Assembly: GCA_903828975.1 (NCBI GenBank)
Contig: CAIKOD010000120.1
Location: forward strand, 1 to 34,400
DNA: 34,400 bases
Direction: 5' to 3'
From: an uncultured Methanomicrobiales archaeon
Lineage (GTDB): Archaea > Halobacteriota > Methanomicrobia > Methanomicrobiales > Methanospirillaceae
Part shown: positions 4,432 through 17,080 of the stretch, one piece after another
How positions within the stretch are numbered: the stretch's first letter is position 1
Layout: each line of letters begins with the position of its first letter
The notes under the pieces: generated by a model
The model's input: the letters and a program-made list of their open reading frames with translations, nothing else
Told to the model about the DNA's origin: nothing
Databases searched by the model: none
Made by a program: the position numbers and the translations under genes

Positions 4432-6321
4432 ATGCTAATTGAAGATAGATTGAAAGAACTTAAGGATAAGATTAATGAAAAGGTGCCTGCAGGCATCACG
4501 GTATCAGACGTGGAATTTGAAGGGCCGGAACTGGTTATCTATACTGACGACCCGAAAAAATTTGCCGATGAGGCGGATCTTATCAAACTACTGGCAAGGG
4601 ACCTGCGCAAACGTATCGTGGTCCGCCCGAACGTACTGGAAGACCCCGACAGGGCAATTGGTGAGATAAAGGCAGTTGTCGCTGAAAATGCGGGCATCAC
4701 TGATATCTTTTTTGATGCAGATACCGGGGAAGTAATAATCGAGGCAGAAAAACCAGGGGTAGTTATCGGGAAAAACGGGGCCACACTCCGTGAGATAACA
4801 AAGCATATTGGCTGGACACCAAAAGTCGTCAGGACACCCCCGATCGAGAGCTCTACCGTTAAACAGGTACGCCAGTACCTGAGGTCGGTTAACGAAGACC
4901 GTAAAATCTTCTTACGTACAATCGGACGCCGTATTCACCGTGATATTACAAGCAAGGACCAATGGGCGAGGGTCACGATGCTCGGCTGTTGCAGGGAGGT
5001 CGGAAGGGCAGCATTCCTGCTTACGACCCCCGAAAGCAGGGTATTGATCGACTGCGGTGAAAAGCCCGACAGTAATAACAGCACGCCATACCTCTATGTC
5101 CCTGAGATACACCCGCTCTCGCAGCTCGATGCTGTCGTTCTGACCCATGCGCACCTCGATCATTGTGCCCTTGTCCCGCTCCTGTATAAATACGGGTATG
5201 ACGGCCCGGTCTACAGCACGCCACCGACCCGTGACCTTTCGGCGATGCTCCAGCTGGACTACCTTGATGTGATTCATAAGGAGGACAGGAAAGTTCCCTA
5301 CTCCTCAAACGAAGTCAAGACATATATCAAGCACTCTATTACTCTCAATTATGGGAACGTGACGGATATCGCACCCGATATTAAACTGACATTCCATAAC
5401 GCAGGTCATATCCTCGGTTCAGCCATCGCCCATTTCCACATCGGCGACGGCCTCTACAACATCGCATTCACCGGGGACTTCAACTACAGTAAAAGTCGTC
5501 TCTTCAACCCCGCAACTGCAAATTTCCCCCGACTTGAAGCACTCTTCATGGAGAGCACGTACGGGGGTTCGGATATGATGCAGCCGGCACGGTCAGATGC
5601 AGAGGAGAAGCTGTACGAGACGATCAATGTTGTCCTCTCACGGGGAGGAAAAGTCATCATTCCGGCATTTGCCGTAGGTCGTTCCCAGGAAGTAATGCTT
5701 GCTCTCGAAGAAGGGATCAGAAAAGAGAAAATTCCGAATGTCAAGATTTACCTTGATGGTATGATCAAGGAAGCAACGGCAATACACACTACCTATCCCG
5801 AATACTTAAACAGTGACCTCCGGAACCTGATCTTCAAGGACGGGATGAACCCGTTCCTTTCAGAAAGCTTTGTTGCGGTGGATTCATCAGACCTCCGCGA
5901 GCGGGTCATCAACGGAGACCCCTGTGTAATTATTACAACAAGCGGGATGATGAACGGCGGCCCGGTAATGGAGTACCTGAGCAACCTTGCAGCAGATGAA
6001 CGGAATGCTCTCGTCTTTGTCGGGTACCAGGCAGACGGTACGCTGGGTAGGCGTATCCAGAAAGGCTGGCGTGAAGTGCCGCTTGGACGGGGCAGGACCA
6101 TCATAATCAACCTCGAGATCGTCACCGTCGATGGGTTCTCCGGGCATTCAGACAGGAGGCAGTTGATGAATTATGTGGGGCAGGTACAACCGAGACCTGA
6201 AAAAATATTCACCATTCATGGCGACGAGAACAATACCATCGACCTTGCCAGCTCGCTCTACAAGCGGTACCATATCCAGACCCATTCCCCTATGAACCTT
6301 GAAACATACCGGATGATCTAA
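4432..6321 (+). CDS. fttA: Transcription termination factor FttA (aCPSF1), KH-beta-CASP ribonuclease
   Basis: This 629-residue protein is the archaeal CPSF73 homologue, an RNase that cleaves nascent RNA and triggers transcription termination. Order of domains: two KH-like RNA-binding domains in residues 1-150 (the second with the GxxG loop VIGKNG at 111-116), a metallo-beta-lactamase core from about 180, and an inserted beta-CASP domain in the middle. Zinc ligands include H239-x-H241-x-D243-H244 (THAHLDHC), a later H in [10 protein letters not shown] in FTGDFNYS, and the C-terminal GFSGHSD motif. The length is typical of archaeal orthologues. The position directly downstream of psmB is one I recall from other euryarchaeal genomes. 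Confidence 0.95.
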
Positions 6322-9660: not shown

Positions 9661-10494
9661 TCAGGCATTCCCTGGATTGACTCTGTGTTTATTTTTTCGC
9701 AATCCCCGTTCTATCAGCACAAGTCCATACAGTCCGGCAGCAATCAGGATTATCGTCGCACCAGATGGGACATCAAGGAAATAGGAGAGGAAGATACCTC
9801 CGGTAGTGACCAGGATACCGACAAACACAGAGAGTACCATCATATTCTTCAGGTGGGAACAATATTCCCTGCTGATAGCTGCGGGTAACGTAAGCAATGC
9901 GATTACCAGGATAATTCCTACGATCCTGATAAGCATGACCACCGTAAGTGCAACCAGGGACAGCAGAAGAAGGGTAACTATTTCCACAGGGATATCGAGG
10001 ACCATTGCATACTCTTCATCGAACGTAACTGTGAGAAAGATCTGGTAGCAGGCGATTACTACAACCACAATCATGACCGCAAGGATTGCCATAATCACAA
10101 GGTCCCCGACCGGTACGAGCAGGATATTACCGAACAGGAAGCTGAAAAGGTCAGGTGCATAACCGGGTGTGAGTGAAATAAACAGGATACCAATCGCCAT
10201 CCCAATCGCCCATATTGCACCGATGAGGGTGTCGAGGTGTTGTTTTGCGCGAAGGGACACCATTCCCATGCCGAGAGCACTCACCAGAGAAAAACCAATC
10301 GCCCCGAGGACAGGGTCAAAACCGGCATAGTAACCGAGGCCGATTCCCCCGAATGCTGCATGGGAGACCCCGCCTGACAGTGCGACCAGCTTCTTTACCA
10401 CGACATATGTACCGATAATACCGCAGGTGACACTTGCGAGGAGGCCTGCTAATAGGGCATTCCTGAAAAATTCAAATGCCATTATGGAGATCAT
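9661..10494 (-). CDS. znuB: Metal ABC transporter, permease (ZnuB/MntB family)
   Basis: The 277-residue protein is very hydrophobic with about eight membrane helices, matching the ABC-3 family permeases of zinc and manganese importers. The landmark segment (VALSGGVSHAAFGGIGLGYY) is typical of these permeases. Its ATG overlaps the stop codon of the ATPase gene by four bases (ATGA), and GAGGGG just upstream is its ribosome site. It is the last gene of the regulator-substrate-binding-ATPase-permease operon. Whether the metal is zinc or manganese cannot be settled from the permease. Confidence 0.9.
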   Translation of the reverse strand: MISIMAFEFFRNALLAGLLASVTCGIIGTYVVVKKLVALSGGVSHAAFGGIGLGYYAGFDPVLGAIGFSLVSALGMGMVSLRAKQHLDTLIGAIWAIGMAIGILFISLTPGYAPDLFSFLFGNILLVPVGDLVIMAILAVMIVVVVIACYQIFLTVTFDEEYAMVLDIPVEIVTLLLLSLVALTVVMLIRIVGIILVIALLTLPAAISREYCSHLKNMMVLSVFVGILVTTGGIFLSYFLDVPSGATIILIAAGLYGLVLIERGLRKNKHRVNPGNA

Positions 10495-11261
10495 GGTAGC
10501 CCCTCGTGCGTATGTTTCCGGAATACCCGGTGGGGGACGCCGTGGGCAATCAGTTCAACCGGGCACATATACGCCGATGTCAGCATCTCCTCTGTTATCT
10601 CGCCACTATCATGGGTATACAGGTGCCGGTTCAGGCAGGCTACTTTCGTTGCATAATCAGAGACCACCCCGATATCATGGGTAACAAGGATTACGGCCAT
10701 TTTCTCTTTTAGCGAGTTGAGAATGTTATAAAACTGCTGTTCTGCAGGTGCATCAACATACACGGTCGGCTCATCTAGGAGGAGTGCACGGGGTTCACTT
10801 ACCAGGGCACGGGCAATAATTGCACGCTGCCGTTCACCGCCGGAAAGTGCGGATATCTCCCTGCCAGAAAGGTCGGAAATCCCCAGTGTTATTAATACTT
10901 CTTCGGTAATACGGCGGTCTTCCTGCGTGTACCGTGTGAATACCCGTGATTTATTGCCCAGGCGTCCGGAGATTACCATCTCGTGCAGGGTGATAGGATA
11001 ATGAAAATCAAACGTGTGGAACTGGGGGACATACCCGAGCATCCTCCGGTTCTCTCGTGGTGTCCCGCCAAATACCTTGATCATACCTTTTTTGGGTTGA
11101 ATTAATCCAAGCATGAGCTTGACCAGGGTTGTTTTGCCACCACCGTTCGGGCCGATAATTGCATAAAACTCCCTCGTATTAACCGCAAGGCTGATATCTT
11201 CAAGGACGGTCTGCCCTGCGATTTCAGCATACACATGGTCGAGTTTAATTGCTTCTGTCAA
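10491..11261 (-). CDS. znuC: Metal ABC transporter, ATP-binding protein (ZnuC/MntA family)
   Basis: This 256-residue ATPase drives the metal importer. It shows Walker A (GPNGGGKT, about 37-44), the Q-loop region (YVPQFHTFDF), the ABC signature LSGGERQR, Walker B (ALLLDEPT) and the switch histidine (VTHD). Its start is a TTG that overlaps the znuA stop as TTGA, with no in-frame ATG nearby, so translational coupling is likely. The stop overlaps the permease start by four bases. The C-terminal tail is short and contains several histidines (HGVPHRVFRKHTHEG), as is common in metal importers. Confidence 0.92.
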   Translation of the reverse strand: MTEAIKLDHVYAEIAGQTVLEDISLAVNTREFYAIIGPNGGGKTTLVKLMLGLIQPKKGMIKVFGGTPRENRRMLGYVPQFHTFDFHYPITLHEMVISGRLGNKSRVFTRYTQEDRRITEEVLITLGISDLSGREISALSGGERQRAIIARALVSEPRALLLDEPTVYVDAPAEQQFYNILNSLKEKMAVILVTHDIGVVSDYATKVACLNRHLYTHDSGEITEEMLTSAYMCPVELIAHGVPHRVFRKHTHEGLP

Positions 11262-12202
11262 TTGAGACCCGCCCTGGATAGTACCTTCGCAAGTTTTTGT
11301 AGTTCACCAGGCATTTCCGGGGCAAGGGGGTCTGCCATGACTACACTGCCGTTGATAGAGTTTGCGATCATATCAGCTGCTCGGCGGCTATATTCCGGTT
11401 CTGCGATAATAATAGTAATTCCCTCCCCGTGGGCAGCCCTGATAAGGGACTCAATATCTTTCGAGGTAGCTTCTTTCCCGGGCTGCCCGATTACCACCTG
11501 GGTGAGCCCATAGTCACGGGCAAAATACCCCCACGATGCATGGGACGCAATAAACTTTTTGCCCGGTGTTTTGTTTAACACTTCCATGATCTCATTATCC
11601 ACAAGGGTGATATTTGTAAGATATTTATCACGGTTCGCATGGTAATATGGTTCATTCGCAGGGTCCACGCTGACCAGTGCATCGTACATATGATTGACCA
11701 TAACGGGTGCATTTTTCAGTGAGACCCAGGTATGCGGATCGGGCCCTTCATGAGAATGCGCTTCAGCCCCCGCACCCGGAACCTGGTTATCCGCATGATT
11801 TCCTTCCTCGTGCTCATCTTCACTCAAAAGAAGTGTAATACCTGGTGCTGTTTCAACGACCTTCATACGTGGGTTCATTGATGATAACCGGGACACCAGG
11901 TTGTCTTCAAGCGGGAGGAGTCCTCTTCCGATGGTCATATAGATATCAGTATCAAAAAAATCCACCACATCCCTTGCTGAGGGTTCAAAGGTATGCGGGT
12001 CAGCCCCCGGAGGTACTGCTACAAAGACTTCCACCCTCTCACCCCCGACTGCCTGTACATAACCTGCTTCAGGTAATACCGTTACCAGGACTTTTATTTT
12101 CGTGGAGTTCTCCTTATGGGGCTCTGTCATGGAACACCCGGCAACAAGTGCACTTATTACGATAAGACAGGTTACCACAAGGGCTATTTCGACGCTCTTC
12201 AT
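11258..12202 (-). CDS. znuA: Metal ABC transporter, substrate-binding lipoprotein (ZnuA-like)
   Basis: I place the start at ATG 12202 (314 residues), because it begins a clean lipoprotein signal: MKSVEIAL, a hydrophobic core, and lipobox LVAGC with Cys23. GAGGG precedes this ATG. A longer frame would prepend about 40 charged residues that do not suit a secreted protein. The mature protein is a cluster A-I binding protein with metal-ligand segments ADPHTFEPS, GPDPHTWVS and ASHASWGYFA. A loop rich in His and acidic residues (SEDEHEEGNHADN, then AEAHSHEG) before DPHTW is typical of zinc-specific ZnuA and argues for zinc over manganese. It is anchored on the outer face of the membrane. Confidence 0.9.
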   Translation of the reverse strand: MKSVEIALVVTCLIVISALVAGCSMTEPHKENSTKIKVLVTVLPEAGYVQAVGGERVEVFVAVPPGADPHTFEPSARDVVDFFDTDIYMTIGRGLLPLEDNLVSRLSSMNPRMKVVETAPGITLLLSEDEHEEGNHADNQVPGAGAEAHSHEGPDPHTWVSLKNAPVMVNHMYDALVSVDPANEPYYHANRDKYLTNITLVDNEIMEVLNKTPGKKFIASHASWGYFARDYGLTQVVIGQPGKEATSKDIESLIRAAHGEGITIIIAEPEYSRRAADMIANSINGSVVMADPLAPEMPGELQKLAKVLSRAGLN

Positions 12203-12239
12203 TTTTCCCTCGTTTTTTTTACAAAAATCCCTGTTAATA

Positions 12240-12254
12240 TTGGTACTATACCAA
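12240..12254. promoter_or_regulatory. Palindromic operator candidate between regulator gene and znuA
   Basis: TTGGTACTATACCAA is a perfect palindrome of 6-base arms with a 3-base centre, in the 70-base gap between the DtxR-like regulator and znuA. It is flanked by AT-rich ATA/TAT sequence. The core TTGG-N7-CCAA recurs with the same spacing upstream of the regulator at 12781-12795. It is the best candidate binding site for the DtxR-like regulator. Confidence 0.55.
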
Positions 12255-12272
12255 ATATTCCCGGTTGGTAAA

Positions 12273-12764
12273 CTACCTGGCGGAAATTTGCGATTTCCCC
12301 TTTTCCTGTCTTTTTTCAGGTCCATTGCAACAGCATGGGTCGTGCGAAATCCTTCCGCAGACCCCCATCATCGGGTGACCCATCGAGCGGCACATCGAAT
12401 CGATGACAACCTTTGAGACTGAATTCTCGAACCGGGCGGCTTCCTCGCAGGCTTCTTCCGGGGTAAGTCCGTAATGGGTGAGTACCAGCCCGAGGATCCG
12501 GTGCCTCCTGACGAGGTATTCGGCATAAATTACCCCTTTTCCGGTAAGGCTGGTGGCCCGGTAAGGCTCATGGGACAAGAGGCCCATTGATGTCAGTTCC
12601 ATGAGGGTTTTGGTCACCGTGGATGGATCAACCCCGAAATATGTGGCAATTTCGGTTGTCTTTGTAGTATCCGGGCTCTCATAAATGAATTTTATATACA
12701 TTGCCTTTCTCGGTGAAAGGAGGAGGCGGTCGATGTCATCCATCAGGTTAATTACATAGACCAC
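12273..12764 (-). CDS. DtxR/MntR-like metal-dependent transcriptional regulator
   Basis: The protein has an N-terminal winged helix (HTH about residues 36-62, IATYFGVDPSTVTKTLMELTSMGLL) and a DtxR dimerisation region. It is 163 residues from GTG 12764, or 156 from ATG 12743; neither start has a good ribosome site. It precedes the ZnuABC-like genes in one operon and probably represses them when metal is plentiful. Oddly, the helix that normally ends in C-x-x-E-H reads A-R-F-E-N (110-114) and the H-x3-E pair reads HRILG (89-93), so standard ligands are missing. A Cys/His-rich tail (C125, H130, C136, H141, C144-C146) may bind metal instead. There is no SH3-like third domain. Confidence 0.8.
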   Translation of the reverse strand: MVYVINLMDDIDRLLLSPRKAMYIKFIYESPDTTKTTEIATYFGVDPSTVTKTLMELTSMGLLSHEPYRATSLTGKGVIYAEYLVRRHRILGLVLTHYGLTPEEACEEAARFENSVSKVVIDSMCRSMGHPMMGVCGRISHDPCCCNGPEKRQEKGKSQISAR

Positions 12765-12780
12765 AACAGGTAAAAATATT

Positions 12781-12795
12781 TTGGAGTGATGCCAA
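12781..12795. promoter_or_regulatory. Second TTGG-N7-CCAA operator candidate, upstream of regulator gene
   Basis: TTGGAGTGATGCCAA lies 17 bases upstream of the GTG start of the DtxR-like gene. Its four-base arms and seven-base centre have exactly the geometry of the palindrome at 12240-12254. Located at the promoter of the regulator, it would allow autoregulation. The centre is not symmetric here, so the match is weaker. Confidence 0.45.
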
Positions 12796-12962
12796 CATTT
12801 TAAAAAATCTACGCAATATTATTCCACGTTGCTGGATTCCAGTCCGGGAAAAATGCCCATGAACACCTTATCGTGAACTATTTACAGGGCTTATAAAACC
12901 GCTATTACGATTTGGCTGTTGTTAACAGAGGAGGATTAGTATTTTCCGCTCTGGTGATATCC

Positions 12963-14875: not shown

Positions 14876-15868
14876 TTACCACCACTGCTGGTGGATATGC
14901 TCACCAGCAGCCGGCGTCGTTTCCCTTCCCTGTGGAGTCCTTTTAATGAACCCGATCTGTATCAGGTACGGTTCGTACACATCCTCAATCGTCCTTGATT
15001 CCTCCCCGACAGAGATCGCGATAGTCTTGAGACCGACAGGCCCACCCTGGAAATCATCTGAAATGACCGTCAGGATCCGCCGGTCAAGATCGTCAAGACC
15101 AAGCGCGTCAATACCAAGCAGGGTAAGGGCATGTGAAGCCACCTCCCGGGTTATCGTGCCATCACTCCGCACTAATGCAAAATCCCCCACGCGACGGAGG
15201 AGACGGTTTGCAATCCTCGGTGTTCCCCGGCTCCGGCCGGCAATTTCACGGGCGGCATCCTCCGTAATACTGACCTGCATGATACCGGCACTGCGTTTGA
15301 TGACTTCGGCAAGTTCACCGGGACTGTACAGGTTAAGACGGGAGATCAGACCGAAGCGGTCACGGAACGGCGAACCCAGGAGACCTATCTTTGTTGTTGC
15401 CCCGATCAGCGTAAAATGCTCAATATCAAGCCTGATAGAGCGGGCGCCCGGGCCTTCGCCAATCATCACATCGATAGCAAGGTCTTCCATGGCCGGGTAC
15501 AAAACTTCCTCCACAACAGGGCTGAGGCGGTGGACTTCATCGATAAAAAGGACATCACCTTTCGAGAGGGTGGTAAGAATTGCTGCGAGGTCCCCTGGTT
15601 TTTCCAGCACCGGGCCGCTCGTTGAATGGATGCAGGTGCCCATCTCGTGGGCGATAATATGAGCGAGCGTAGTCTTCCCAAGGCCGGGAGGACCTGAAAG
15701 CAGGATATGGTCCAGGGGTTTTTCCCGTTTCTGTGCCGCTTCTATTGCAATTGATAGTGTTTCTTTCAGGCCGTCCTGGCCAATAAAGTCTTTCAGCTTT
15801 GACGGCCTGATCGTCTCCTCGATCTCGTCCTCTCCGGTCACAACAGCCACGATCACCCGTTCCCTCAT
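14876..15868 (-). CDS. ruvB: Holliday junction branch-migration ATPase RuvB
   Basis: The 330-residue AAA+ motor drives branch migration of Holliday junctions with RuvA. It shows Walker A (GPPGLGKT, 59-66), Walker B (FIDEVH, about 108-113), the sensor and arginine-finger region (GSPFRDRFG, arginine 169), and a C-terminal winged helix ([19 protein letters not shown]). The length and motif order are those of bacterial RuvB. Its ATG overlaps the ruvA stop by four bases (ATGA), as the last gene of ruvC-ruvA-ruvB. A bacterial-type RuvB is unusual in archaea overall, which normally use Hjc-type resolvases; in Methanomicrobiales it is presumably of bacterial origin. Confidence 0.95.
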
Positions 15869-16470
15869 ATCTTATTCCTCTCTTTCAGGAGTAACAGGGA
15901 GGCTTTCAATAATGCCTGCGAATCGACCGGCCCTGTCCTTCTGCAGGTCTCGTCAACAGCAGCGTACGATTCGCGGGAAGGGAATCCCAGTGCGATCAGG
16001 GCTTCAGCCACGTCTTCGCGGATATTGCCCGGGACTCCCGGGGATGCCGAAGCGACCGCCGGGAGATGCTCCTTCATCCGGTCTTTTAGTTCGAGTATGA
16101 GCCTTTTCGCGTTCCTTGGTCCTATCCCGGAGAGCCTCGTCAGCCTTTTCTCGTCCTCCCCGGTAACCGCCTGGACAAATTCCTTCGCAGGGACCTGTGA
16201 GAGGATGGAAAGTGCCAGCTGGGGGCCGACACGGTTCACAGTGATGAGGAGCTGGAATACCTCGAGGTCGAACGTTTCGGAAAACCCGTACAGGGCAAGC
16301 GAGTCCTCCCGTACAATAAGGTGGGTGTGTACTCTTTTCTTCCCTGGAGACCGGGAGAGGCTGATGATATCTGTTGATGTCATATTAACCCGGTACCCTA
16401 CTCCCCCAACATCAAGTACCACAAATCCTTCCCCGGTTGCAACAATTTCCCCACAGAGTTGTGATATCAC
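15865..16470 (-). CDS. ruvA: Holliday junction-binding protein RuvA
   Basis: RuvA binds the four-way junction as a tetramer and loads RuvB. I choose the GTG at 16470 (201 residues, beginning [13 protein letters not shown]) because RuvA families begin at this OB-fold strand and a GGAGGGG ribosome site lies eight bases upstream; an ATG at 16509 would add 13 unrelated residues. Order: OB fold (about 1-62), helix-hairpin-helix domain ([13 protein letters not shown] and [16 protein letters not shown]), an Ala/Gly/Pro linker (ASASPGVPG), then the C-terminal RuvB-binding domain ([12 protein letters not shown] to KERNKI). It lies between ruvC and ruvB, with a 134-base gap after ruvC. Confidence 0.93.
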
Positions 16471-16603
16471 CAATGTCCCCTCCTGGCCTGGGGGAGTATT
16501 CCTGTACACCCGTACCTGTTACTGCAGTATAGTGAAGTCCCGGTTGTTCTTAACAAGGACAGACCCGGGTGAATAAAAAACATAAGGGTAAGAGCTTTCA
16601 TCC

Positions 16604-17080
16604 TTATTCCCTCATGGTATGGATATGGCAGAGAGCGATGGAAAGACCGTCCGCGGCATCATCGGGCTTCGGGATTTCCTGCAGGTGAAGGAGCCGTTTG
16701 ATCATCTCCTGCACTTGTTTCTTGTCTGCCCGTCCTGACCCCGTTATCGCCTGTTTCACCTGGTTCGGGGTATATTCGGTCACGGGGACCCCTTCCTGTT
16801 CGCAAAGCAAGAGAATGATACCACGGACTTCGGCAACGGCCATAGCAGACGTGATATTTTTCGAAAAAAATAGTTTTTCAACTGCCGCACACTCCGGACT
16901 GTGTTCCAGAAACAGGTCTTTCAATCCGCCATAGAGCTGATTGAGCCTTGATCCCGCTGACATATCTCCCCTGGCAGTCGTTATGCAGCCATGGGTAACA
17001 TGGGTAGCCCGGTTACCCGTCTTCTCGATTACCCCGTATCCCATACGCGCAAGGCCAGGGTCAATACCTAGTACAATCAT
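16604..17080 (-). CDS. ruvC: Holliday junction resolvase RuvC
   Basis: The 158-residue endonuclease cuts Holliday junctions symmetrically using two magnesium ions. It has the RNase H-like fold of bacterial RuvC: MIVLGIDPGLARMGYGV with Asp7, a conserved Glu in AAVEKLFF (about 68), and the C-terminal acidic pair in KPDDAADGLSIALCH. This is the resolvase missing from many archaea that use Hjc instead, so its presence gives the complete bacterial RuvABC set. It is first in the ruv group, 118 bases after ppk1 on the same strand, and may have its own promoter there. Confidence 0.95.
   Translation of the reverse strand: MIVLGIDPGLARMGYGVIEKTGNRATHVTHGCITTARGDMSAGSRLNQLYGGLKDLFLEHSPECAAVEKLFFSKNITSAMAVAEVRGIILLLCEQEGVPVTEYTPNQVKQAITGSGRADKKQVQEMIKRLLHLQEIPKPDDAADGLSIALCHIHTMRE

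Follow-up and report, generated by a model that had tools for sequence, protein, structure and literature searches.

A gene for a DtxR-like regulator adjoins znuABC at this locus, with one copy of a short palindrome on each side of it. This arrangement raises the question of whether the palindromes are operators of the regulator and, if so, which metal the regulator would sense; little is known of how methanogens control zinc.

The regulator, the znuABC operon and two palindromes

The window is the whole 34,400-nt stretch of DNA analysed here, and the operon is read on its minus strand in the order regulator, znuA, znuC, znuB. An earlier note had located the pattern TTGG-N7-CCAA at 12240-12254 (TTGGTACTATACCAA) and at 12781-12795 (TTGGAGTGATGCCAA), flanking the regulator gene, and both copies were recovered at exactly these positions. 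The former falls within the 70 bp that separate the regulator stop (12273) from the znuA ATG (12202); the latter stands just upstream of the regulator, separated by 37 bp from its probable ATG at 12743. From the comparison of genomes described below, these are very probably the predicted sites by which a zinc-sensing repressor would silence itself and the adjoining zinc importer. The features of the locus are as follows.

12780-12796, minus strand: operator 1, predicted to be autoregulatory (GTTGGCATCACTCCAAA; core 12781-12795), its right arm abutting the TATA-like box
12771-12780, minus strand: TATA-like box AATATTTTTA, a putative promoter element 28-37 bp before the ATG
12273-12743, minus strand: DtxR-fold metalloregulator of 156 aa (PF01325 and PF02742 above cut-off; alignment of orthologues)
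12239-12255, minus strand: predicted operator 2, in the regulator-znuA gap (TTTGGTATAGTACCAAT; core 12240-12254)
11258-12202, minus strand: znuA, zinc-type substrate-binding lipoprotein (SBP) with a His-rich loop (PF01297, E 7e-58)
10491-11261, minus strand: znuC, ABC ATPase (PF00005)
9661-10494, minus strand: znuB, ABC-3 permease (PF00950, E 4e-71)

ZnuA, the ABC-3 permease and the ATPase are thus encoded side by side, as in a ZnuABC importer. A profile of 42 aligned upstream sites showed a T-rich block at a constant distance, directly after the operator, which places the right arm CCAAA at the expected position of an archaeal BRE. With the TATA-like block some 30 bp ahead of the ATG, the regulator mRNA would be leaderless or nearly so and would start with ATG 12743. 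The GTG at 12764, listed as the regulator start, is probably not the true one; it is near or upstream of the presumed transcription start. No clear or convincing TATA box was found after operator 2 in the regulator-znuA gap.

The bare TTGG-N7-CCAA pattern alone is not beyond chance. The window contains three copies against 0.98 expected, a number reached by 11 of 100 shuffles, and the third copy (4808-4822) lies within a 629-codon ORF. Pattern searches of the whole genome gave no enrichment either (30 sites versus 44 for the reversed control). Such counts would suit a reading of both palindromes as chance matches, which is nevertheless hardly tenable and is refuted by position-specific conservation across many genera: the same two positions are conserved in orthologous loci, and the palindromes are therefore non-random.

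Conservation of the predicted operator across the order

Of 61 genomes examined from the order, 48 have a relative of the regulator; genome contigs were also scanned with a 10-row alignment. Phylogenetic footprinting of the orthologous operons, a check proposed in the earlier note, revealed an exact TTGG-N7-CCAA in 24 of 47 readable loci, those of both congeners with the gene among them, where it lies 47-57 bp ahead of the regulator start codon. The note had taken absence of the motif from such operons as refuting, and this outcome did not arise. The sites vary in spacer and flanks, which argues against mere recent descent. Alignment of 42 upstream and 24 intergenic sites yielded a 17-bp consensus, TTTGGTAC-N-GTACCAAA; the palindrome described previously therefore stands, but its extent does not, the operator being longer than TTGG-N7-CCAA. 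The aligned sites had been chosen with a 14-position score that biases those columns, and the columns outside this score (C after TTTGGTA, G before TACCAAA) likewise fit the palindrome. In an unbiased test, the best match per region was compared with dinucleotide shuffles at a threshold of at least 12 of 16 matches. Of the upstream regions 17 of 47 reached this level (shuffles: 0.18), as did 11 of 28 intergenic regions (shuffles: 0.10); of 48 coding control regions, none did. These numbers overstate independence because the loci are related by descent. With up to two mismatches, the 17-mer occurs in only 23 places in 46 genomes, about half of them at the regulator locus.

The two-site layout is conserved in orthologues far beyond the genus. 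Operator 2 has a counterpart at the equivalent position in the two congeners with the gene (TTTGGTTATGTACCAAA in G002 and TTTGTAAGAGTACCAAA in G001), and the intergenic site is kept in most znuABC-type loci having a regulator-znuA gap. It could be argued that only operator 1 is functional, the intergenic copy being a relic or a chance match without separate effect and the operon giving one transcript from the first promoter; the lack of a convincing TATA box after operator 2 would fit, as would the znuABC loci L039, L041 and L043, in which the genes overlap and a second site is missing. We regard this as distinctly improbable, given that the intergenic site is conserved (11 of 28 strong against 0.1 expected), is retained in both congeners and is also found before the S-component gene of the ECF loci described below.

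Among named organisms, relatives of the regulator occur in Methanoregulaceae and Methanolinea. On contigs labelled Methanothrix, possibly misbinned, the regulator is accompanied by an adjoining EcfT gene and by an upstream site that is imperfect yet recognisable. The regulator of Methanohalophilus has neither the motif nor a neighbouring transporter, and no clear site was seen at the orthologous loci L051 and L052.

Of the two copies, operator 1 of the window is the weaker, matching the consensus at 10 of 16 positions. Most other sites in this genome lie inside ORFs or score 9-12 of 16, and therefore no further regulon member is claimed. The sequence TTTGGTCCTGCACCAAA (C150), which recurs in the congener G001, was rejected as a regulon site since it lies within a coding ORF in both genomes, and the C8 site was dropped for also being inside a coding ORF. 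One of the few non-coding copies, ATTGGAGCGATTCCAAA at L104:788-802 (G000 C123), is outside any ORF and precedes a membrane polyferredoxin-like gene by 43 bp, yet has a chance-level score (11 of 16).

Metal site, likely effector and proposed mechanism

The regulator had been called DtxR-like, and its domain scores agree: 44.9 bits for Fe_dep_repress (cut-off 26) and 51 bits for Fe_dep_repr_C (cut-off 27). It passes no NCBIfam equivalog cut-off; the nearest models are those of MntR, far out of reach at 54.6 versus 153, 52.5 versus 350 and 38.6 versus 138 bits. The classical metal ligands are M10, C102, E105 and H106 in DtxR and D8, E11, H77, E99, E102 and H103 in MntR. These are mostly replaced in the 43 orthologues aligned, only a His (H81) and one Glu (E106) being kept in 43 of 43. 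The C102/E99 position carries S, E, A, K and others, the H106/H103 position is His in only 3 of 43, and the E11 position is K or R in 40 of 43. Besides H81 and E106, residues C99, C118, H123 and C129 are invariant, C138 is found in 41 and H134 in 39 of the 43, and the protein has a conserved Cys/His-rich end. Alignment to solved MntR/IdeR-type proteins, read with these ligand numbers, presumably places C99 at the position of DtxR H98, with C102 and H106 lost; the sensor site is therefore remodelled. With most classical ligands missing, the metal of the regulator is not readable from homology.

The transporter points to zinc. The best solved match of ZnuA is a cyanobacterial zinc SBP (1pq4), and alignment to 1pq4 and AdcA shows, besides the His-rich loop, a His in the segment FIxxHxSWxYFARDY, which corresponds to the third metal-ligand position of zinc-type SBPs. 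On these grounds zinc is the likeliest metal, and most likely the effector of the regulator. The same regulator and operators might instead answer to another metal (Mn, Co or Ni) carried by the ABC transporter. Mn can be carried by ZnuA-type proteins, and MntR models are the nearest to the regulator, if far below cut-off; we nonetheless consider this alternative unlikely, since the best matches of ZnuA are zinc proteins and both the His-rich loop and the third His are present.

The only other DtxR-family gene of the genome (G000 C118, L118:639-3215) lies directly before a feoB-like GTPase gene. It probably encodes an iron regulator, and iron would therefore be left to that protein.

Taken together, the adjacent DtxR-family protein is quite likely a metal-activated repressor, most likely zinc-sensing, that would use both palindromes as operators. 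When zinc is plentiful, a metal-loaded dimer would bind TTTGGTAC-N-GTACCAAA, presumably as a repressor rather than an activator. At operator 1 it would lie over the BRE/TATA elements driving the regulator gene, which should block TBP/TFB and switch off its own operon. Operator 2, just ahead of znuA, would be a second control point, at which the dimer may block an internal znuA promoter or halt read-through transcription as a roadblock. When zinc is scarce, both operators would be released and ZnuABC made. Conservation of the sites at both positions supports the earlier proposal of autoregulation and znuABC control through a non-IdeR box; we infer that znuABC would be under separate control within the operon.

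The likeness to characterised systems is partial. DtxR/IdeR iron repressors have the same two domains and repress by binding over the promoter, as predicted here; unlike them, the present regulator has neither conserved equivalents of C102/H106 nor an SH3-like C-terminal domain. Like MntR and TroR of znu/tro-type ABC operons, it is a short two-domain DtxR protein adjoining an ABC metal importer, but the E11, E99 and H103 of MntR are replaced and extra conserved Cys/His residues are present. The title of Hazlett 2003, cited in PMC2628430, names the Treponema pallidum TroR as a zinc-dependent repressor. The suspicion that the operator is not a usual DtxR box was borne out: the consensus differs from, and does not match, the 19-bp IdeR/DtxR box TTAGGTTAGSCTAACCTAA (PMC10317159). 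In the archaeal FetR, MntR and ZntR regulons, too, a regulator of the DtxR family is paired with a palindromic operator close to genes for metal uptake, and archaeal DtxR regulons are thus already known as a kind. In 2015 Leyn and Rodionov (J Bacteriol 197:451) reportedly predicted these three, the zinc regulons with TroA-family transporters, in an abstract that is said not to name CbiM-type ECF transporters; part of the present regulon could already be in that work.

Probable exchange of the importer in relatives

In 16 of the 48 orthologous loci, the regulator is followed not by znuA but by a CbiQ-like EcfT gene, then by genes for an ECF ATPase and for an S component of the CbiM family (such ECF-type loci include L136-L145, L037, L038, L046, L047 and L050). 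The two operators recur in these relatives, one before the regulator and, in many loci, one 60-110 bp before the gene for the substrate-recognition (S) component. This second operator is clear in L137, L139, L140, L141, L142 and L145, weaker in L038, L138, L143 and L144, and absent in L136, L037, L046, L047 and L050. The two-operator layout follows the regulator and not the transporter.

The cassette resembles the Co/Ni systems CbiMQO and NikMQO in its CbiQ-like T component, ECF ATPase and PF01891 S component. It differs in that the S component starts with MAHIHLxDG, a shape invariant in 14 of 14 (MAHVHL in one), versus MHIMEG in the canonical CbiM of the same genomes, and in never co-occurring with ZnuA. 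The S component lacks the MHI(M/P)EG N terminus and scores below the NCBIfam CbiM equivalog cut-offs (35-58 versus 172-225 bits). Among the 61 genomes, the CbiM-like component is present in 17 and a strong ZnuA in 41, never together. Among 135 genomes, each at least 90% complete and overlapping the former set, 31 have the CbiM-like component, 91 ZnuA, 13 neither and 0 both, where 20.9 would be expected (Fisher value 1.6e-20, which ignores phylogeny). Both importer types occur inside the genera g1, g5 (6 versus 17) and g13, and the cargo must change six times on the regulator tree, two of the changes being forced by well-supported branches.

From this pattern, the CbiM-like ECF cassette probably replaces ZnuABC as the zinc importer: the two importers would be alternatives serving one function under a common switch, and the ECF system would accordingly import zinc. 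An operator fronting a CbiM-like system, from a family known for Co/Ni, could also be taken to favour a metal other than zinc. CbiM-family matches were present in all 61 genomes checked, however, with strong canonical ones in nearly all, so that other systems supply Co/Ni; the CbiM-like protein is also far below every CbiM cut-off (57 versus 205 bits) and differs in its N-terminal metal-binding segment. Keeping to zinc, we lean, with some reserve, towards the wider view that in Methanoregulaceae and neighbouring groups the CbiM-like ECF transporter imports zinc and has repeatedly replaced ZnuABC, being a zinc-specific branch of the Co/Ni family under a DtxR-fold sensor with a remodelled Cys/His site. 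Searches of largely open-access literature found no zinc ECF transporter.

Several ECF loci encode, after the S gene, a two-TM protein of about 90 aa (GPxGIEERF...GFSIEG), which may be an N-like partner of the CbiM-like component. The argument that the cassette lacks an N component and hence is not a Co/Ni system was dropped, a small two-TM ORF following the S gene in three of the loci examined. G004, G008, G043 and some 10 other genomes within the order yielded neither ZnuA nor the CbiM-like component, which may reflect incomplete assembly or zinc uptake by ZIP or a different system.

The comparison provides a precise 17-bp operator and points out a clade of regulators whose metal site is distinctive. 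For the orphan ECF transporter, present only where ZnuA is absent in the 135 near-complete genomes, it makes a sharp prediction; if true, the annotation of these 'cobalt transporters' should become zinc. Of all this, the exchange of importers most deserves to be tested, and the split between the two is testable within a single genus.

Elsewhere in the window, a ruvB-ruvA-ruvC set lies at 14876-17080 on the minus strand, with strong matches to all three Pfam families. Bacterial-type RuvABC is unusual in archaea, and its presence here therefore suggests horizontal transfer or a misbinned contig.
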